Of a stretch of 64,000 nucleotides of DNA, positions 28,735 to 35,615 are shown piece after piece; position 1 is the stretch's first letter; every line of letters starts with the position of its first letter. The notes beneath the pieces were generated by a model, which saw only the letters and a list, made by a program, of their open reading frames with translations, made no database searches and was not told the DNA's origin. The translations under genes were made by a program, and so were the position numbers. Origin of the DNA: a virus; IMG/VR virus record IMGVR_UViG_3300037804_000367, positions 1 to 64,000 of that record; one strand, written 5' to 3'.

Positions 28735-28785
28735 ATTTAATTTTCCATTTGTTTTATTATCCAGCTATTAGATGAAAATTTAAAG

Positions 28786-28871
28786 CGGAAAGCATAGGGA
28801 TCGAACCTAATACCACAAGTGTACCAACCGTTTAGCAAACGGTGACCAGCGCCAAGCCAGTATTACTTTCC
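28786..28871 (-). tRNA. tRNA-Ser (GCU)
   Basis: Class II tRNA. Acceptor GGAAAGT / GCTTTCC, anticodon loop TTGCTAA, long variable arm, discriminator G. Reads AGC/AGU. Last tRNA of the leftward array. Confidence 0.9.
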
Positions 28872-28884
28872 AAAAAAGAATATA

Positions 28885-28954
28885 GTGATTGAGCAGGATT
28901 CGAACCTACATCTCGGCGCCCAAAAGGTGCGACTTCCCATTAGTCCATCAATCA
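28885..28954 (-). tRNA. tRNA-like gene with an aberrant anticodon arm
   Basis: Acceptor TGATTGA / TCAATCA, D arm (GACT/AGTC) and T arm (GTAGG/CCTGC) are intact. The segment between D and T stems is only 21 bases, and no 7-base loop on a paired 5-bp stem can be drawn (best: GCACC-TTTTG-GGCGC with an A.C mismatch). Isotype unclear; possibly a decayed or specialised tRNA. Confidence 0.6.
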
Positions 28955-29054
28955 GTCCCTTACACTTTTACATACACAACTTTCAATCGTACTCTAGATT
29001 ACAAAAGCGTACGCGTATATTACTAATGTTAGTTTCTTTTACTATAAAATGTGG

Positions 29055-29139
29055 AGACTAGTGTCAGATTCGAACTGACGAGAGGATTTCTCCTAGCGGA
29101 TTTGCAATCCGCCGCCTTCAACCACTCAGCCAACTAGTC
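29055..29139 (-). tRNA. tRNA-Cys (GCA) with a class II long variable arm
   Basis: Acceptor GACTAGT / ACTAGTC, discriminator T (the Cys identity base), anticodon stem-loop GCGGA-TTGCAAA-TCCGC as in bacterial tRNA-Cys. The variable arm is long (AGGA-GAAA-TCCT), normally seen only in Leu, Ser and Tyr tRNAs. The 5' part overlaps the end of the HNH gene at 29118. Confidence 0.85.
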
Positions 29140-29699
29140 AAAAAATTATTTCTATATTCTATTACTTCTTGCTCTACTAAATGTTTTAAATTATTGTTGT
29201 GCCAATACAAATGATGATTAGGACACATTGGTATTAAATTTTCAACTGAATTGTCATTGTGATCTTCATTAAAATGATGAACCGAAACTGCATTCTCTTC
29301 GTCACACACTACACATTTTCGTTCATGATGTTCAAAACAAATTCTCACATACGCTTGTTTTGAATCAATTTTAAAATTAGGATGATTCTTTCCACTTCTA
29401 AAGTGTTTATTTCTACAAGCTAATGAACATGTTGTTCGGTTTCTTCTATCAGTTCCTTTAATAATACGAACTTCAGTTTCAAACTCAGTATCACAAACTG
29501 GACAATTCTTTTTTACTTTCTGGTACACGCCTCTATTATTATGATTTGAATCAAAATGTTCAATTGATATATTATTATCTTTGATGATAGCTTTAATTTT
29601 AGATCTAGCATACGATCTATCATTTCCTATCAGTGAGTTACAAACATCCTTGTATGTGAATGATTCTTTTATTATTTTTTTTACTTTTTCGATGTCCAT
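29118..29699 (-). CDS. HNH homing endonuclease
   Basis: 193 residues. An N-terminal DNA-binding segment, a four-cysteine zinc site (CPVC...CSLAC), and an HNH nuclease core CVVCDEENAVSVHHFNED followed by CPNHHLYWH (about 132-165). It has its own late promoter at 29727. Its final codons (LTSWLSG) are encoded within tRNA-Cys, so it appears to have inserted at or captured the 5' end of that tRNA gene. Related in style to the HNH genes at 32220 and 33277. Confidence 0.85.
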   Translation of the reverse strand: MDIEKVKKIIKESFTYKDVCNSLIGNDRSYARSKIKAIIKDNNISIEHFDSNHNNRGVYQKVKKNCPVCDTEFETEVRIIKGTDRRNRTTCSLACRNKHFRSGKNHPNFKIDSKQAYVRICFEHHERKCVVCDEENAVSVHHFNEDHNDNSVENLIPMCPNHHLYWHNNNLKHLVEQEVIEYRNNFLTSWLSG

Positions 29700-29726
29700 T
29701 ATATATTCCTTTATGATTTATAAAGG

Positions 29727-29734
29727 TATTTATA
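29727..29734 (-). promoter_or_regulatory. T4-type late promoter (leftward)
   Basis: Exact TATAAATA on the minus strand, 28 bases before the HNH ATG, with AAAGGA between. Confidence 0.75.
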
Positions 29735-29808
29735 ATATAATGGGTAATAACATAGACGGTGAACTTATTTATTCACTATCTTGTTGGTCCCCTGACAAAA
29801 AGATAAAG

Positions 29809-29881
29809 GGTGATGGACGAGAGTCGAACTCGCATATAACTCGATTCACAGTCGAGCGCTTTACCATTAAGCTACCAAAAC
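29809..29881 (-). tRNA. tRNA-His (GUG)
   Basis: Anticodon stem-loop CTCGA-CTGTGAA-TCGAG, discriminator C with a G encoded at -1 (29882) as required for His. Two acceptor positions (3-70, 4-69) are mismatched (T.C, T.T), which is unusual but leaves five pairs. Confidence 0.8.
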
Positions 29882-29890
29882 CATATTAAG

Positions 29891-29962
29891 TACACCGTTC
29901 AGGACTCGAACCTGAAACTTTCCTTTCGTAGAGGAAAATGATATCCATTTCACTAACGGCGC
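29891..29962 (-). tRNA. tRNA-Arg (ACG)
   Basis: Acceptor GCGCCGT / ACGGTGT, anticodon stem-loop TTCCT-CTACGAA-AGGAA. A34 would need host TadA to become inosine to read CGU/CGC/CGA. Confidence 0.85.
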
Positions 29963-29972
29963 AGATTTAAAT

Positions 29973-30050
29973 TGGCGTAGAAGAAGGATTCACACCTTCG
30001 TGTTGAAAGAGACAGGTTTACTACTCTGCTGTATCGTCAGTCCGAACTAC
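29973..30050 (-). tRNA. degenerate tRNA-like sequence with encoded CCA
   Basis: A clear T arm (GAAGG/CCTTC with loop TGTGAAT) and 3' end TTCTACG-CCA. The 5' half pairs poorly (only GTAG/CTAC) and the anticodon region around CTTTCAA lacks a proper stem. Probably a decayed tRNA-Glu. Confidence 0.45.
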
Positions 30051-30201
30051 CAGTCCTATTGTCCAACCTTTAAGTTTGATCCTATCCTGACATGATTAGT
30101 AGTTTAGTCTAACCTGTTTCAATCAACTTTCAAACACATAGCATTTACCAGAGAGATCTCTTATCTCACTAACTTAACTTAGTACTACATAAAAATTTTA
30201 A

Positions 30202-30354
30202 TTACTTGTCACTTTCAATGTTTACAGGAATAGTTACATCATGAATACTATCTGAAAACCTAGACAACTTTCCAAAACTAACTAACATGACTAATTGCAT
30301 CAATGGATGTGCTATCATATTATGCACTATCCAATTTTTATATAACCATTTCAT
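30202..30354 (-). CDS. small conserved phage protein
   Basis: 50 residues from the ATG at 30354 with AAGGA 7 bases upstream; a longer reading would start inside tRNA-Trp. WLYKNWIVHNMIAHPLMQ and FSDSIHDVTIP match a small protein found in many phages, with a short hydrophobic middle. Function unknown. Embedded in the tRNA array. Confidence 0.65.
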   Translation of the reverse strand: MKWLYKNWIVHNMIAHPLMQLVMLVSFGKLSRFSDSIHDVTIPVNIESDK

Positions 30355-30421
30355 GATTGTTCCTTGAACTATTATTAAATTTAATTGCTCTTTATTATCC
30401 TTTAGTATTATAATAAAGTTA

Positions 30422-30492
30422 CAGGTCATCAAGGATTTGAACCTTGATCAACGGTTTTGGAGACCGTCATGTTACCATTACACTAATGACCT
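30422..30492 (-). tRNA. tRNA-Trp (CCA)
   Basis: Acceptor AGGTCAT / ATGACCT, discriminator G, anticodon stem-loop ACGGT-CTCCAAA-ACCGT. Confidence 0.9.
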
Positions 30493-30556
30493 AACTGGTA
30501 TGAAGAAGTTCTCGTGTACATCGATACTATTCTTTTTCACTGCATACCTCAGTTAG
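30491..30556 (-). ncRNA. possible small hairpin RNA in the tRNA array
   Basis: The gap between tRNA-Trp and tRNA-Ser folds into a long helix: CTAACTG/CAGTTAG plus GTATG/CATAC separated by a 2-base bulge. No open frame. It may be a processed spacer or a small stable RNA. Confidence 0.4.
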
Positions 30557-30599
30557 AATATCATGGCTTAAAGGCTCTAGTAATACTCTGGTAGAATGG

Positions 30600-30686
30600 C
30601 GGAGAGTAGAGGGATCGAACCCCTAGCCTTTTGAGTTGCCACCACCGGGTTCAAACCGGTTTGCAGACCATTCCGCGGTACTCTCC
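30600..30686 (-). tRNA. tRNA-Ser (UGA)
   Basis: Class II. Acceptor GGAGAGT / ACTCTCC, anticodon stem-loop ACCGG-TTTGAAC-CCGGT, long variable arm, discriminator G. Confidence 0.9.
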
Positions 30687-30692
30687 GTTTTA

Positions 30693-31127
30693 TTATTGAA
30701 CTTGATGATCAGCGACAGAACTTGCACACCAGCTATCAGGTTTTAATTTATAATCATAACCGAATCCTTTTACGAATCCACAAATTTCATTCTTGTACAA
30801 CCCACTTTTGAATTTAGGATTTTGATTTACGTCCAAGTGAATTGTAATGTTTTGGGATATCATTTTAGATATCTTCTGTGCTACTTCTAGTGACATCCAT
30901 GCTTCGTGAATCAAACGATCTCGTAATGACGGGAACAACTCTGTATAGTGCATTCTTTTTATTACATGGTTATCGTTTTTCTTTACTAGTGCGATGACTG
31001 TACTAAAAAGAACTTGTTTATTCTTTCTTTGAGAATCTGTTCCGATGAATACTTCTCTGCCATCACATGCATGTTGTTTTAAGAACTCGTCAATGTCGAG
31101 CTCTGTTCCTGATAGTGTAGTCCACAT
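30693..31127 (-). CDS. RNase H-like YkuK/DUF458 protein
   Basis: 144 residues. VFIGTDSQ near residue 26, HLDVNQNPKFKSGLYKNEI (about 97-115) and KPDSWCASSVADH at the end are the signature of the DUF458/YkuK family, which is predicted to have an RNase H fold. Possible nuclease or tRNA/RNA-processing role; its place among tRNA genes is suggestive. An AGGA site precedes the ATG. Confidence 0.75.
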   Translation of the reverse strand: MWTTLSGTELDIDEFLKQHACDGREVFIGTDSQRKNKQVLFSTVIALVKKNDNHVIKRMHYTELFPSLRDRLIHEAWMSLEVAQKISKMISQNITIHLDVNQNPKFKSGLYKNEICGFVKGFGYDYKLKPDSWCASSVADHQVQ

Positions 31128-31171
31128 TTTCCTATTCCTTGTTTGTTTCTCCTTTGAGAATGTTATGTTAG

Positions 31172-31245
31172 TATCACTGCTAGGACTCGAACCTAGAACC
31201 TATGGTTTAGAAAACCACTACTCTATCCAATTGAGCTACAGCGAC
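31172..31245 (-). tRNA. tRNA-Arg (UCU)
   Basis: Acceptor GTCGCTG / CAGTGAT, anticodon stem-loop GTGGT-TTTCTAA-ACCAT, discriminator A. Reads AGA/AGG, rare in many hosts. Confidence 0.9.
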
Positions 31246-31259
31246 ATGTTGTAAAAAAG

Positions 31260-31331
31260 TCCACCTGGTTGGTTTCGATCCAACTTCCCCGATTTAAAAG
31301 ACCGGTGCTATCCCAATTCAGCTACAGGTGG
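31260..31331 (-). tRNA. tRNA-Lys (UUU)
   Basis: Acceptor CCACCTG / CAGGTGG, anticodon stem-loop CCGGT-CTTTTAA-ATCGG, discriminator A. Confidence 0.9.
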
Positions 31332-31346
31332 GTGTTTGTAAAAAAG

Positions 31347-31418
31347 CCTCGTAGGTAGGTAACGATCCTACATCTCCGGTTCTTCAAACCAGCGCTAATC
31401 CATTTCAGCTACTACGAG
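31347..31418 (-). tRNA. tRNA-Phe (GAA)
   Basis: Acceptor CTCGTAG / CTACGAG, anticodon stem-loop CTGGT-TTGAAGA-ACCGG, discriminator G. Confidence 0.88.
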
Positions 31419-31423
31419 AGTTG

Positions 31424-31518
31424 TTTAATCACAAGTCGCATGGTAGGCAGCTGTGCTTGCGCAGTGAACTGTTCATTGCATTAGACCTCTCTCGAAAGAG
31501 TTACGTCTTGTGATTAAA
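31424..31518 (-). ncRNA. small structured RNA closed by a 12-bp helix
   Basis: 95 bases between tRNA-Phe and tRNA-Leu, bounded by a perfect 12-bp helix (TTTAATCACAAG / CTTGTGATTAAA). Inside are further hairpins, for example CTCT-TTCG-AGAG, and TGC-GCAA-GCA. It is neither a tRNA nor coding. Comparable in setting to T4 RNA C and RNA D, stable RNAs of unknown function in the T4 tRNA cluster. Confidence 0.7.
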
Positions 31519-31531
31519 GTTGTAAAAATTA

Positions 31532-31605
31532 TACCGCAGGAGAGACTCGAACTCTCAAACTCTGGTTTCTAAAACCAGTCCATATGCCAATTCTGGTACT
31601 GCGGC
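31532..31605 (-). tRNA. tRNA with UAG anticodon (Leu) and short variable loop
   Basis: Acceptor GCCGCAG / CTGCGGT, discriminator A, anticodon stem-loop CTGGT-TTTAGAA-ACCAG. The anticodon predicts Leu (CUA), but the variable loop is only five bases (AGTTT) whereas bacterial tRNA-Leu is class II. Confidence 0.8.
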
Positions 31606-31611
31606 TTAAAG

Positions 31612-31685
31612 TACACGGAGAGGGACTCGAACCCACAATCTTCTGTATGTAAAACAGATGCCTTAGCCAATTTGGCTATCCGTGC
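31612..31685 (-). tRNA. tRNA-Val (UAC)
   Basis: Acceptor GCACGGA / TCCGTGT, anticodon stem-loop TCTGT-TTTACAT-ACAGA, discriminator A. Confidence 0.9.
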
Positions 31686-31698
31686 TTATTGTAAAATA

Positions 31699-31772
31699 TC
31701 TGTGAGGTAGGATTTGAACCTACAGCCTCCGACGTCCAAGGTCGGCCATCAACCAGATCGATATCCACACAG
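31699..31772 (-). tRNA. tRNA-Pro (UGG), copy 1
   Basis: Acceptor CTGTGTG / CTCACAG (one mismatch), C1-G72 and A73 as in Pro tRNAs, anticodon stem-loop CCGAC-CTTGGAC-GTCGG. Position 37 is A rather than the usual G. Confidence 0.8.
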
Positions 31773-31786
31773 TTCTGAATTGTAAA

Positions 31787-31856
31787 CTGATGCGATAGGA
31801 TTTGAACCTATACCCTCCTTGCGCTAGGAGTGCTCTTCCCAATAAACTACACATCA
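31787..31856 (-). tRNA. tRNA-like gene with an aberrant anticodon loop
   Basis: Acceptor TGATGTG / CGCATCA and T arm ATAGG/CCTAT are good. The anticodon hairpin is CTCC-TAGCGCAA-GGAG (8-base loop) or CTCCT-AGCGCA-AGGAG (6-base loop); no canonical 7-base loop fits, and only 20 bases separate the D and T stems. Confidence 0.6.
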
Positions 31857-31869
31857 TTAGTAAAATGTA

Positions 31870-31943
31870 TCGGTGTGAGAGGATTTGAACCTCCAGTCTT
31901 TTCGCCCCAAACGAAACGCCTTACCAGATTAGGCTACACACCG
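31870..31943 (-). tRNA. tRNA-Pro (UGG), copy 2
   Basis: Acceptor CGGTGTG / CACACCG, A73, anticodon stem-loop TTTCG-TTTGGGG-CGAAA with G37. Confidence 0.88.
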
Positions 31944-31956
31944 TTATAAAAATTGG

Positions 31957-32028
31957 AGCCTATGGGGAGTACCGAGATCCCGACCTGCTGGTTACAAATC
32001 AGCTGCTCTGCCACTGAGCTACATAGGC
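31957..32028 (-). tRNA. tRNA-Thr (UGU), copy 1
   Basis: Acceptor GCCTATG / CATAGGC, anticodon stem-loop GCTGA-TTTGTAA-CCAGC, discriminator T. Confidence 0.85.
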
Positions 32029-32040
32029 ATTGTAAAGTGG

Positions 32041-32113
32041 AGCCGCCTGACAGAATCGAACTGACATTCCTGCATTACAAAAGCAGTTTCTTAAGCCATT
32101 AGAAGAAGGCGGC
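32041..32113 (-). tRNA. tRNA-Thr (UGU), copy 2
   Basis: Acceptor GCCGCCT / AGGCGGC, anticodon stem-loop CTGCT-TTTGTAA-TGCAG, discriminator T. Confidence 0.85.
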
Positions 32114-32123
32114 ATTTAAAACT

Positions 32124-32199
32124 TGGTGGAGAATACCGGCCTCGAACCGGTGTCGGGTGGGTGCAAGCCACCTGTTTTATCCATCTAAACTAATTCCCC
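32124..32199 (-). tRNA. tRNA-Ala (UGC) with encoded CCA
   Basis: Acceptor GGGGAAT / ATTCTCC, A73 and CCA encoded, anticodon stem-loop GGTGG-CTTGCAC-CCACC. Confidence 0.92.
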
Positions 32200-32219
32200 A
32201 AAAATCTTTACTATAGTGA

Positions 32220-32738
32220 CTACCCTAACGACAGCCCTCTTGCACTTCTACCATTACCTTTATTTCGTCCGCCAAATGTTTCAGTCTGACTATGACAATT
32301 AGGACAAATTAATCTCAAGTTAGTTGGAAAGTTATTTCCTGCGTTCCCGTCGATGTGGTCTACTTGTAGTGTTAAAGGCTTGTTATTATATTCACTTATA
32401 TTACATAGTGCACATTTATATCCTTGATCATGAGTTAAGCAACGTCTCAGGGTATTTCTAGTTTCTATCAATCCGTCTCTAAATCTACAAAGGGTAGTGT
32501 TCTCAAATTTATAGTTTGCTTGGCAAATATTATTACAGTATATTTTTTTACTATGTTTTATATCTGCTTTACAATACTTACAATTTGATAATCTACCTTT
32601 ATATGATCGTAATGTATTTGTAACCGTTGCTCTACATGATTTACTACAGAACTTGTTTGTTCTTTGTTTAAATGTTAACATGCTGTTACAGCACTGACAA
32701 TATTTTGGATGTTCACTATATATTTGTTTTGTTATCAT
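32220..32738 (-). CDS. HNH homing endonuclease
   Basis: 172 residues. Two N-terminal zinc knuckles (YCQCC...FCSKSC; CKYC...YCNNIC), then an HNH core: KCALCNISE, TLQVDHIDGNAGNN and NLRLICPNCHSQT. It sits between tRNA-Ala and tRNA-Gly with its own late promoter (32757) and an AAAGGAG site. Confidence 0.88.
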   Translation of the reverse strand: MITKQIYSEHPKYCQCCNSMLTFKQRTNKFCSKSCRATVTNTLRSYKGRLSNCKYCKADIKHSKKIYCNNICQANYKFENTTLCRFRDGLIETRNTLRRCLTHDQGYKCALCNISEYNNKPLTLQVDHIDGNAGNNFPTNLRLICPNCHSQTETFGGRNKGNGRSARGLSLG

Positions 32739-32756
32739 TTCACATCTCCTTTCTAT

Positions 32757-32764
32757 TATTTATA
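32757..32764 (-). promoter_or_regulatory. T4-type late promoter (leftward)
   Basis: Exact TATAAATA on the minus strand, 19 bases before the HNH start. Confidence 0.75.
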
Positions 32765-32803
32765 ATATACAGGAGTCGAACTCACTAGCACAAGTTAAAA
32801 AAG

Positions 32804-32877
32804 TGCAACGTACCGGTCTCGAACCGATCTTATTTCTCGTTGGCAACGAGATGCCATACCAACTAGGCGAACGATGC
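32804..32877 (-). tRNA. tRNA-Gly (GCC)
   Basis: Acceptor GCATCGT / ACGTTGC (one T.T mismatch), anticodon stem-loop TCTCG-TTGCCAA-CGAGA. Confidence 0.87.
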
Positions 32878-32938
32878 ATGTAAAATTTACTTCTATCTTC
32901 TATCACATGTTATAAAACAGATCAATGTTAAAATATGG

Positions 32939-33009
32939 CTACCCCGACTGGTTACGATCCAATCCTAACTCTTTCAAAGAGAGCTGTGCTACCAATACAC
33001 TACAGGGCA
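32939..33009 (-). tRNA. tRNA-Gln (UUG)
   Basis: Acceptor TGCCCTG / CGGGGTA, U1-A72 and G73 as in Gln, anticodon stem-loop GCTCT-CTTTGAA-AGAGT. Confidence 0.88.
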
Positions 33010-33023
33010 GTCTAAAAAGTTGG

Positions 33024-33096
33024 CGGTATAGACGAGAGACGATCTCGCAACCTTCCGATAGACAATCGGATGCTCTGCCAATTGAGCTACTATACC
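33024..33096 (-). tRNA. tRNA-Asp (GUC), copy 1
   Basis: Acceptor GGTATAG / CTATACC, G73, anticodon stem-loop TCCGA-TTGTCTA-TCGGA. Confidence 0.9.
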
Positions 33097-33103
33097 AATT
33101 AAG

Positions 33104-33185
33104 TGCCGCCTCTGGGTAACGATCCCAGCGAGCATAATGCGCAGGTTTTACAGACCTGATCCCCTCCTTAGAGATATACAACGGC
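33104..33185 (-). tRNA. tRNA-Tyr (GUA)
   Basis: Class II with long variable arm. Acceptor GCCGTTG / AGGCGGC, A73, anticodon stem-loop CAGGT-CTGTAAA-ACCTG. Confidence 0.9.
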
Positions 33186-33194
33186 TTAAAATAA

Positions 33195-33267
33195 CGGTTC
33201 ATACGAGATTTGAACTCGTGTTCCGCCCGTGACAGGGGCGTGTCCTAACCAACTAGACGAATGAACC
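33195..33267 (-). tRNA. tRNA-Asp (GUC), copy 2, on a Glu-like backbone
   Basis: Acceptor GGTTCAT / ATGAACC, G73, anticodon stem-loop CGCCC-CTGTCAC-GGGCG. The D arm (TTCGTCTAGTTGGTTAGGAC) is that of tRNA-Glu, so this may be a Glu tRNA whose anticodon changed from UUC to GUC. Confidence 0.8.
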
Positions 33268-33276
33268 TTAAAAGTT

Positions 33277-33894
33277 TTATTTTTTTCTTGTTTTATAAGT
33301 GCTGGTTTGAGAATGACAATTAGGACATAACATTCTCAAATTAGAAATTTCATTATTCCTATGATCACCGTTAATATGATCAACATCCAAAGTAATATCA
33401 TTTCCTAACCAGTTTGTCAAATGACAGCTAGAGCAAATATTCATATCTAATATTTTGAATTTCTTTACTGCTCTGCTAATACTACTCCTATCATACTCAC
33501 TATTTTTACAAAAAATCAATTCTCTTGTCCATTCCTTTTTCCCTCTCCTATATGATTTTTTTAAATCAAAATGTTCTAAACTTAGATTATGTTCTTTGAT
33601 CTTCAATTTCACATTTTTTATATTATTATTATGATAAGTTAAATTTAATTGTTTTAATACATCAGCCATACAAATTGAATTAGCAATAGCTGATTTTAAG
33701 TCATTAATGCTATATCTCATACTTCTACGACAAAGCAAAATTCCATTTTGCGTTAGCCTTTCTGAAAGGATTTCTCGCACTCCAGTGTCTTGACTTTCTA
33801 TAACCTTTAAAATATTTGAGATTGATTTGTGTTTATAATACAAATCACAAAGTTCAACATCTGTCATTTTTCGTACAATTTCTCTTTTCGTCAT
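33277..33894 (-). CDS. HNH homing endonuclease
   Basis: About 205 residues from the ATG at 33894 (GAGGT site). A start at 33924 would overlap the late promoter. The N-terminal helices may bind DNA; the C-terminal HNH core has CSSCHLTNWLG, LDVDHINGDHRNNE and LRMLCPNCHSQT. Third HNH gene in the tRNA array; similar C-terminus to the one at 32220. Confidence 0.87.
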   Translation of the reverse strand: MTKREIVRKMTDVELCDLYYKHKSISNILKVIESQDTGVREILSERLTQNGILLCRRSMRYSINDLKSAIANSICMADVLKQLNLTYHNNNIKNVKLKIKEHNLSLEHFDLKKSYRRGKKEWTRELIFCKNSEYDRSSISRAVKKFKILDMNICSSCHLTNWLGNDITLDVDHINGDHRNNEISNLRMLCPNCHSQTSTYKTRKK

Positions 33895-33924
33895 AATGGC
33901 ACCTCTTATTGTTACACCTGTCAT

Positions 33925-33932
33925 TATTTATA
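33925..33932 (-). promoter_or_regulatory. T4-type late promoter (leftward)
   Basis: Exact TATAAATA on the minus strand, 31 bases before the HNH ATG at 33894. Confidence 0.75.
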
Positions 33933-34010
33933 ACAACTATAGCACTAACTGTGCCCTAACAACTACATAAAATAAAGAGGAAATCAACAGACTTTCTTAC
34001 TGAATTTTAA

Positions 34011-34175
34011 TGGGAAGTGTAGGAATCGAACCTACGAATGTTTACAAAAGCTCATCAGCCTCATTCAACTTGATCGGCGCTAACCCTAATCAAGCGGTAA
34101 ACTCTAAGTCACTTAGCCTCCATGACCTATTTGTGTGCCCGATGACGCTAATCATCATCATCTCATCTACTTCCC
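34011..34175 (-). ncRNA. expanded tRNA-like RNA (165 nt)
   Basis: Perfect acceptor stem GGGAAGT / ACTTCCC with A73, and a perfect T arm GTAGG-TTCGATT-CCTAC, but about 130 bases lie between them instead of about 50. That stretch folds into several hairpins: GATGA/TCATC, CTAAG-TGA-CTTAG, CTTGAT/ATCAAG, all partly enclosed by GTTTAC/GTAAAC. No standard D arm or anticodon arm can be drawn. Could be a tRNA with insertions, a tmRNA-like molecule or a new tRNA-like RNA. Confidence 0.65.
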
Positions 34176-34193
34176 AGTAAATTGTTTGTAAAG

Positions 34194-34267
34194 TACTACA
34201 GGAGAGATTTGAACTCTCAGTCACCTGTTTATCAGACAGGCGGCTTAACCAATTTGCCTACCGTAGT
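34194..34267 (-). tRNA. tRNA-Ile (GAU)
   Basis: Acceptor ACTACGG / CTGTAGT, A73, anticodon stem-loop CCTGT-CTGATAA-ACAGG. Confidence 0.9.
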
Positions 34268-34276
34268 AAAAGTGAG

Positions 34277-34408
34277 TGGGGTCGGTAGGAATCGAACCTA
34301 CTTACAACTTTATCCAAGCATTAAGTAATAGCTTATTACTTTCACTATTTAGCCTAGTGATTAATTTTAAGGATATCTAAACAAGTTGCTCTTCCACTAA
34401 GCAACCCC
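34277..34408 (-). ncRNA. expanded tRNA-like RNA with insertion in the anticodon loop (132 nt)
   Basis: Acceptor GGGGTTG / CGACCCC, A73 and T arm GTAGG-TTCGATT-CCTAC are intact. An anticodon-type stem CAACTT / AAGTTG encloses GTTTAGA plus an insert bounded by TATCC/GGATA. The insert holds two hairpins (CACTA/TAGTG and a perfect AAGTAATA/TATTACTT). If the insert were removed a 7-base loop GTTTAGA would remain. Positions 8-9 seem to be missing. Confidence 0.65.
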
Positions 34409-34427
34409 ATGTAAATTTTTAATAAAT

Positions 34428-34504
34428 TGGTGCGACATGAGAGACTCGAACTCTCAACATCCACATTGGAAGTGTGGCACTCTAGCCAATTGAGTTAATG
34501 TCGC
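34428..34504 (-). tRNA. tRNA-Gly (UCC) with encoded CCA
   Basis: Acceptor GCGACAT / ATGTCGC, A73 and CCA encoded, anticodon stem-loop CCACA-CTTCCAA-TGTGG. Confidence 0.92.
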
Positions 34505-34588
34505 ATTTAAAAGTACCGCCGTGATATTGATCTATGGTGTCGACCCCTTCGATCTTCAAACCCTTAGAGTGAGCTTATATTACTCAAG

Positions 34589-34661
34589 TGGAGGACACGG
34601 GACTCGAACCCACAATGCCGGCAGTTTGCCGGTGAAGTTAACCAATTACTTCCAATCCCCC
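34589..34661 (-). tRNA. tRNA-like gene with a 5-base anticodon loop
   Basis: Acceptor GGGGGAT / GTCCTCC, D stem GAAG/CTTC and T arm GTGGG/CCCGT are present. The anticodon hairpin is a perfect CCGGC-AAACT-GCCGG with only five loop bases and no U33. Isotype cannot be assigned. Confidence 0.6.
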
Positions 34662-34749
34662 GAGCAACATTATTCACACCGTTCGGGTTTGTTTTTATAT
34701 CACGACTTGGCATCCCCATCCTCCCTTTCGGGACTCCGCTTCTGCCTGA

Positions 34750-34821
34750 CTGATCTAGCTGGACTCGAACCAACATTTTACAAATTAACAGTTTGCTGCA
34801 TTACCATTATGCTATAGACCA
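34750..34821 (-). tRNA. tRNA-Asn (GUU)
   Basis: Acceptor TGGTCTA / TAGATCA, G73, anticodon stem-loop GCAAA-CTGTTAA-TTTGT. Confidence 0.9.
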
Positions 34822-34830
34822 AGGTAAAAA

Positions 34831-34973
34831 ACATTTACTTAACATTTAAATCTTTATCATTCGGCGTAGTTAGTTTAAAAACTACCTTTAGGATGTTCCC
34901 CGTCTGAAAATGTTTGGTGGATTCGCAGAGTTGATGATAAATATCCTTGTCGGTTCCGTTGTTAAGTAAATGT
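34831..34973 (-). ncRNA. small structured RNA closed by a 13-bp helix
   Basis: 143 bases bounded by a perfect 13-bp helix (ACATTTACTTAAC / GTTAAGTAAATGT), with an internal GTAGTT/AACTAC hairpin. No open frame and no tRNA features. Same style as the RNA at 31424-31518; likely a stable RNA cut from the tRNA transcript. Confidence 0.65.
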
Positions 34974-34992
34974 AAAGATGTATTTAATTTAG

Positions 34993-35028
34993 GGTACTGC
35001 TGTAACCATTACGCTACATTACGGTTCT
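34993..35028 (-). pseudogene. 5' half of a decayed tRNA
   Basis: Read leftward, an acceptor-like CCGTAATG and a normal D arm (TAGCGTAATGGTTACAGCA) are present, but no T arm or 3' acceptor follows; the sequence runs into the helix-closed RNA instead. Confidence 0.55.
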
Positions 35029-35041
35029 AACTTAGATACAA

Positions 35042-35112
35042 TGGCGGGTGCCGGACTCGAACCGACGTGCGAGGCTTATGAGACCCCTGAGTGACCACTA
35101 CTCTAACCCGCT
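35042..35112 (-). tRNA. tRNA-Met (CAU), possibly initiator
   Basis: Acceptor AGCGGGT / ACCCGCC with an A1.C72 mismatch, the kind of unpaired 1-72 end found in initiator tRNAs. Anticodon loop CTCATAA, A73. The anticodon stem (GGGGT/GCCTC) lacks the full three G-C pairs of a bacterial initiator, so elongator is possible. Confidence 0.82.
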
Positions 35113-35335
35113 ACAAAAAGTAAGCCTCTATATTTTTGTTATCTCGGAGGTTGACACTTACCCGTCCTCCGACTACTCATAATTTTTAAAATGGTGGATC
35201 GCTTATTTTTCATGATCGTCCACACCGTAACACTTTATAAACAAACTAGTATTTATTATAAAGCTTATACCTGCTTCACGAACCGCCTGACCATTATCCG
35301 AATTGTTTTAGTTTCGGCAACTACAGTTGTTAAAA

Positions 35336-35459
35336 AGCCCACCACTGGAATCGAACCAGTTCCTAGAGTCGGGTTTGTTCCTTTGCGAAGCGCTTCACTC
35401 GGGACCTCCATCTAATATAACCTCAGCAAGTGAGTGCTCTACCAATGAGCTAAATGAGC
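35336..35459 (-). ncRNA. expanded tRNA-like RNA (124 nt)
   Basis: Acceptor GCTCATT / GGTGGGC (with wobbles), a standard D arm (GCTC-ATTGGTA-GAGC) and T arm ACTGG-TTCGATT-CCAGT. An anticodon-type stem CACTC/GAGTG encloses about 31 bases rather than 7, and the variable region has about 34 bases including GCG-CTT-CGC. Third member of the expanded set. Confidence 0.65.
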
Positions 35460-35474
35460 ATGTTGTTTGTAAAA

Positions 35475-35535
35475 TGGCGCTGGAACTAGGAGTGCATGCC
35501 TAGATTTACCATCCCTATCCTAAGGGACGTCCAAC
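35475..35535 (-). ncRNA. minimal tRNA-like RNA lacking an anticodon arm (61 nt)
   Basis: Acceptor GTTGGAC / TTCCAGC (six of seven pairs), one hairpin CCCT-TAGGAT-AGGG in the D position, a T-arm-like CTAGG/CCTAG with an 8-base loop, then G and encoded CCA. Nothing corresponds to an anticodon arm. Either a decayed tRNA or a tRNA mimic. Confidence 0.5.
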
Positions 35536-35541
35536 ATTTAG

Positions 35542-35615
35542 TATTCCAGACGGGGCTCGAACCCGCAATCTTCTGCGTGAAAGGCAGACGAGATGACCAA
35601 TTACTCCACTGGAAC
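35542..35615 (-). tRNA. tRNA-Glu (UUC)
   Basis: Acceptor GTTCCAG / CTGGAAT, A73, anticodon stem-loop TCTGC-CTTTCAC-GCAGA. First tRNA of the leftward array. Confidence 0.9.

Follow-up and report, generated by a model that had tools for sequence, protein, structure and literature searches.

The minus-strand tRNA array of the viral contig G000 was found to include three enlarged tRNA-like RNAs, here designated ODD1, ODD2 and ODD3, which are probably stable, non-decoding RNAs of the kind represented by T4 rnaC and by T5 RNA1 and RNA2, processed as tRNAs and retaining their cores. This assignment draws on the anatomy of the three RNAs, their position in the array, the recurrence of this anatomy in other viruses and covariation in the T4 and T5 RNAs.

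G000 is 128,786 bases long, and the window (the whole 64-kb stretch of DNA that was analysed) is part of it. The window includes genes for ribonucleotide reductase subunits and an NAD-dependent DNA ligase, while genes for a virion structural protein and a CCA-adding tRNA nucleotidyltransferase are found on G000 outside the window. The tRNA array (28785–35615, minus strand) was delineated with ARAGORN, the Rfam tRNA model and reading of the sequence. ARAGORN called 27 tRNAs, the Rfam tRNA covariance model (CM) added one at 31957–32028, and a tRNA-Tyr at about 33104–33185, missed by both, was recognised by reading; with this tRNA-Tyr the array tRNAs cover all 20 amino acids. The array is interrupted by HNH endonuclease genes (matches at 29118–29699, 32220–32738 and 33277–33924), and a gene for an RNase H-like protein (Pfam PF04308) also lies within it (30693–31127, minus strand). 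Many inter-tRNA spacers between 31246 and 34276 (minus strand) have in common a T-rich linker resembling TTTTACAA(CA), which adjoins ODD1 too and is possibly a signal for processing. Elsewhere on G000, a tRNA with anticodon CUA, of the amber suppressor type and labelled Pyl by ARAGORN, was seen at 83699–83771 (minus strand; L122:19699–19771), and the stop codons among the long ORFs of the contig are 13 TAG, 49 TAA and 14 TGA.

ODD1, ODD2 and ODD3 are all on the minus strand inside the array, with total lengths of 165, 132 and 124 nt. In each, an enlarged core is enclosed by an acceptor stem whose 7 bp can all form and by a T arm with a faultless 5-bp stem and the standard TTCGATT loop; the coordinates, lengths, intact tRNA-like ends and remodelled cores proposed in the first-pass annotation were borne out. 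When the whole space up to the previous tRNA is considered, an acceptor partner of equal quality would arise by chance with a probability of 0.02 for ODD1, 0.003 for ODD2 and 0.28 for ODD3. The strength of the evidence is therefore unequal, as it also is for folding: ODD1 and ODD2 are more stable than shuffled sequences and ODD3 is not, yet the tRNA model scores the latter as an insert-bearing tRNA.

ODD1 (34011–34175, minus strand), defined from sequence and fold, has the acceptor stem GGGAAGT/ACTTCCC, with seven Watson-Crick pairs out of seven, and the T arm GTAGG-TTCGATT-CCTAC. Its core is made up of three to four hairpins, with no recognisable D or anticodon arm, and is predicted to fold with a z score of −3.31, none of 200 shuffles being as stable. 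The tRNA CM (RF00005) gave no match to this RNA. ODD1 retains only the acceptor/T half of a tRNA; a core that is canonical apart from its insert is an apt description for ODD2 and partly for ODD3, not for ODD1. A hammerhead was considered for ODD1 on account of a hammerhead-like CTGATGA, and was rejected as no other element of the hammerhead core is present.

ODD2 (34277–34408, minus strand), defined with the tRNA CM and by folding, is composed of an acceptor stem (GGGGTTG/CGACCCC, seven of seven pairs including one G-U), a D-like arm, an extended anticodon arm carrying an insert, and a T arm identical to that of ODD1. By reading, there are no bases for positions 8–9 between the acceptor stem and the D arm. 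The anticodon arm consists of the stem CAACTT/AAGTTG and the loop GTTTAGA, followed by an insert closed by TATCC/GGATA; both the insert and the 7-base loop had been recognised at first pass, and the insert was found to hold two hairpins. The tRNA CM scored 27.2 bits over the whole length of ODD2 with its insert, just under the cut-off of 29, and the fold z score is −2.99. In the unspliced RNA the anticodon loop is opened by the insert, which leaves no usable anticodon arm.

The location of this helix-closed insert exactly in the anticodon arm, where its removal would leave the 7-base loop, speaks for the three RNAs being functional tRNAs from which an unknown short intron is spliced out. We regard this explanation as very improbable. 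Rfam searches of ODD1–3 gave no match to a group I intron up to E = 10 and none to any other ribozyme, and the inserts are far below group I size, in agreement with the first-pass opinion that they are too short for such introns. Moreover, no cloverleaf is left in ODD1, and the comparable anticodon-arm insert of T5 RNA1 is annotated within a 144-nt stable RNA, with insert helices that covary. Judging from T5 RNA1, the mature RNA probably keeps its insert.

ODD3 (35336–35459, minus strand) was detected by the tRNA CM above the gathering threshold, with 31.1 bits across its whole length including a long insert (cut-off 29). Its acceptor stem is GCTCATT/GGTGGGC (seven of seven pairs, three of them G-U), its T arm is ACTGG-TTCGATT-CCAGT and its D arm is GCTC/GAGC, and about 70 nt take the place of the anticodon/variable region. 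The acceptor pairing by itself is weak evidence because of the high chance of an equal partner; the D and T arms and the CM score carry ODD3. The tRNA model skips its anticodon region, so that the unspliced RNA has no usable anticodon arm, and decoding by ODD1 and ODD3 is predicted to be unlikely since the model recognises an anticodon arm in neither. ARAGORN with introns allowed reported ODD3 as a tRNA-Ala(CGC) with a 7-nt intron; this call was not believed, and three further ones, in which ordinary tRNAs were fused or overlapped, were spurious.

The main rival explanation is that the three loci are decaying tRNA genes, in which recombination together with insertions and deletions by homing endonucleases has left only the ends tRNA-like. 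This is possible, most of all for ODD3, whose core folds no better than shuffled sequences (z score +0.6), and for ODD2, from which positions 8–9 are missing, and it is in line with the HNH genes scattered through the array and with a lone 5' tRNA half nearby. The latter (CGTAATGTAGCGTAATGGTTACAGC) opens the spacer 34823–35040 (minus strand), which also has a long inverted repeat, ACATTTACTTAAC/GTTAAGTAAATGT; a corresponding 3' half was not found. For the three RNAs together, however, decay is judged rather unlikely: erosion would be expected to affect the stems, whereas the 7/7 acceptor and 5/5 T-stem pairings are intact in all three, ODD1 and ODD2 are unusually stable, and, as described below, many viruses have this anatomy more often than chance would give, with covariation maintaining it in T4- and T5-like phages.

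The same build is known from well-studied phages, and the novelty implied by the first-pass annotation did not survive this comparison. In the T4 tRNA cluster, rnaC and rnaD are annotated as small stable RNAs, species 1 and 2. T4 rnaC (139 nt; "small, stable RNA; species 1 RNA") has a T arm, CCGGGTTCGAATCCCGG, an acceptor-like terminal stem formed by pairing of its ends, and a large replaced core; it has been classed among the late RNAs without a known function, with a northern blot as a check (PMC9697503; see also PMC3014915). The tRNA array of T5 (AY543070) holds HNH genes, RNA1 (144 nt), RNA2 (125 nt) and other stable RNAs, RNA1 and RNA2 being annotated as "tRNA-like stable RNA with unknown functions". 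In RNA2, CATTCTA pairs with TAGGATG, and a T arm, GCAGGTTCGAATCCTGT, accompanies an enlarged core. With the tRNA CM, RNA1 reached 24 bits across 131 nt, to be compared with the values given above for ODD2, and its anticodon arm is likewise opened by an insert closed by its own helix. These RNAs are conserved, with matches in 718 phage records for rnaC, 433 for RNA2 and 484 for RNA1.

Small alignments of RNA1 (nine homologues) and rnaC (five homologues) disclosed compensatory changes in 11 of 38 and 12 of 46 pairs, respectively, these being counts over sequences and not over independent events. In RNA1, four of the compensated pairs belong to the acceptor stem and others to the insert, and one acceptor position varies as G-C, A-U and C-G among the homologues. 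Covariation thus supports the acceptor stem and the insert of T5 RNA1, and rnaC.

ODD1–3 resemble RNA1 and RNA2 in their location in a tRNA array with HNH genes, in size (125–144 nt for the T5 RNAs) and in having an acceptor stem and canonical T arm around an enlarged core; they resemble rnaC in lying in a tRNA cluster and in their acceptor-like end stem, T arm and large replaced core. They differ from the T5 RNAs in the absence of sequence similarity and from rnaC in core architecture. The CM built from the nine RNA1 homologues (R1) found no match at ODD1–3 up to E = 10, only ordinary tRNAs being hit (best 14.8 bits), the CM built from the five rnaC homologues (R2) found none either, and blastn detected no RNA2-like match to the window region in phages. 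As all three lie inside a phage tRNA array, with an acceptor-like stem and T arm around an enlarged core (about 120–170 nt in total), ODD1–3 are very probably not a new category but members of the same kind as rnaC, RNA1 and RNA2.

A comparable principle is seen in the tRNA-like domain of tmRNA (RF00023), where tRNA ends enclose a non-tRNA body. No credible tmRNA match was obtained for ODD1–3, the score at 34274–34412 (ODD2) being 17.4 bits vs a cut-off of 47. A separate Rfam tmRNA match was seen on G000 at about 103754–104117 (minus strand; L123 19754–20000 and L124 1–117), with 51.0 and 23.5 bits for two parts that are separate only because two analysed stretches meet there. ARAGORN reported no tmRNA there; this locus is probably a phage-encoded tmRNA.

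No homologues of ODD1–3 were detected by blastn with the array and with each RNA, either in fetched viral contigs or in phage records, the latter giving nothing beyond short stretches of tRNA-like sequence or weak matches attributable to chance. Searches for related loci that used the DNA ligase and a 659-aa protein found none; a search with NrdA returned relatives, none above about 50% identity. Among array-bearing contigs, the closest found was G002 (202 kb), which has a virion protein in common with G000 at 49–56% identity and a tRNA array of its own. It has four expanded tRNA-like RNAs of 190, 129, 109 and 102 nt with 7-bp acceptor stems, against 0.4 expected, and blastn revealed no similarity between G002 and ODD1–3. 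Thus, in the nearest array-bearing virus found the kind persists and its individual members turn over.

A generic T-arm pattern scan, likewise run to find relatives, brought up unrelated tRNA loci, and these served for a survey of other viruses. The fetched loci hold 1323 strict T arms; 1084 of these fall within genes called by ARAGORN, and a further 192 are near tRNAs. Among these orphans, 59 have a 7-bp acceptor partner 95–300 nt upstream, compared with 14.9 expected when the acceptor strand is permuted; the 59 cannot be read as a count of independent RNAs, since some are repeated among contigs that overlap or are related, and chance would account for about a quarter. One family, of 158 nt, was recovered from five IMG/VR contigs (L034, L072, L080, L088 and L090; alignment A3) and has 13 of 49 pairs compensated, with no match in phage records. 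Like ODD1–3 it combines a 7-bp acceptor stem, a T arm and a long structured core on tRNA-bearing viral contigs; unlike them, it has a 5-bp stem with a 7-base loop at the place of the anticodon arm, and a giant variable arm. The CM of this family found no match at ODD1–3. As far as compared by covariance models, ODD1–3 are therefore not homologues of RNA1, rnaC or the 158-nt family: they are of the same kind and not of the same families.

Inspection of G000 disclosed further structured or tRNA-like elements. A candidate stable RNA of 95 nt (31424–31518, minus strand) has a 12-bp closing stem, TTTAATCACAAG/CTTGTGATTAAA, and no T arm, its layout being similar to those of T5 RNAIII and RNA2H; the fold z score for 31419–31531 is −3.47. 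A candidate small RNA at 35475–35535 (minus strand), between tRNA-Glu and ODD3, consists of two hairpins with GTTGGA/TTCCAGC closing and a GCGCCA end (z score −2.15 for 35460–35540), and a short hairpin with a CCA end, GTGGACGATC...GATCCACCA, lies between ODD3 and tRNA-Met (35192–35223, minus strand). At 29973–30191 (minus strand), the last part of a 219-nt segment resembles the 3' half of a tRNA, CGAAGGTGTGAATCCTTCTTCTACGCCA, and an incomplete acceptor partner lies upstream. A candidate fourth expanded tRNA-like RNA, of 209 nt, was seen outside the window at G000 88934–89142 (minus strand; L123:4934–5142), directly after tRNA-Leu(UAA); it reads GTCGGGT...TCCCGAC followed by ACCA, with four of five T-stem pairs and a z score of −1.5. 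The motif GGAAAGTCC suggested that the latter could be RNase P RNA, which was dismissed as Rfam gave no match.

The acceptor/T half of a tRNA is the part recognised by RNase P, by the 3' processing enzymes and by the CCA-adding enzyme, and any RNA placed between its arms therefore gains defined and protected ends. In ODD1–3 this half would act as a processing and protection cassette. The array would be transcribed as a long precursor, RNase P would cut the 5' end of each RNA and the 3' end would be trimmed, and CCA would be added, probably by the phage's own nucleotidyltransferase. CCA-tailing had been suggested at first pass, and it is plausible because a CCA-adding enzyme is encoded by the phage itself. 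The enlarged core would stay in the mature RNA and carry whatever activity exists.

The likeliest activity would be that of a tRNA mimic engaging tRNA-binding or tRNA-cleaving host factors, with a trans-acting regulatory RNA as the next choice. A decoy or mimic function is a plausible conjecture; its more specific form, in which ODD1–3 titrate anticodon nucleases of the host or other defences that target tRNA, falls within the stable-RNA reading as a special case, overlaps with it in confidence, and is in itself doubtful. Remodelled anticodon regions would suit a binder that cannot be cleaved, and phage tRNAs have been reported to evade tRNA-targeting defences through changes in the anticodon loop (PMC10264068), which counts in its favour. 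Against it, it is a conjecture with no defence gene or target identified, and the cores differ among the RNAs and share no motif: counts of 5- to 7-mers are almost the same as in shuffles, and no 6-mer occurs in more than 7 of 31 cores. AGTGAAG had looked promising as a common core motif and was abandoned.

The breadth of the phenomenon across viruses is more interesting than ODD1–3 themselves. No function is known yet for species 1 RNA of T4 or for the tRNA-like RNAs of T5, and counts of tRNAs made with standard tools miss or misread expanded tRNA-like RNAs. We tentatively suggest that expanded tRNA-like RNAs may constitute a widespread and hardly annotated viral class in which many tRNA-rich phages enclose unrelated structured RNAs in tRNA ends, so that the tRNA maturation of host and phage would serve generally to package effector RNAs, for example mimics acting against tRNA-cutting defences. 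Their recurrence in unrelated forms in many tRNA-rich viruses, together with covariation in three families, indicates that a function is worth seeking and defines a list of targets for doing so.
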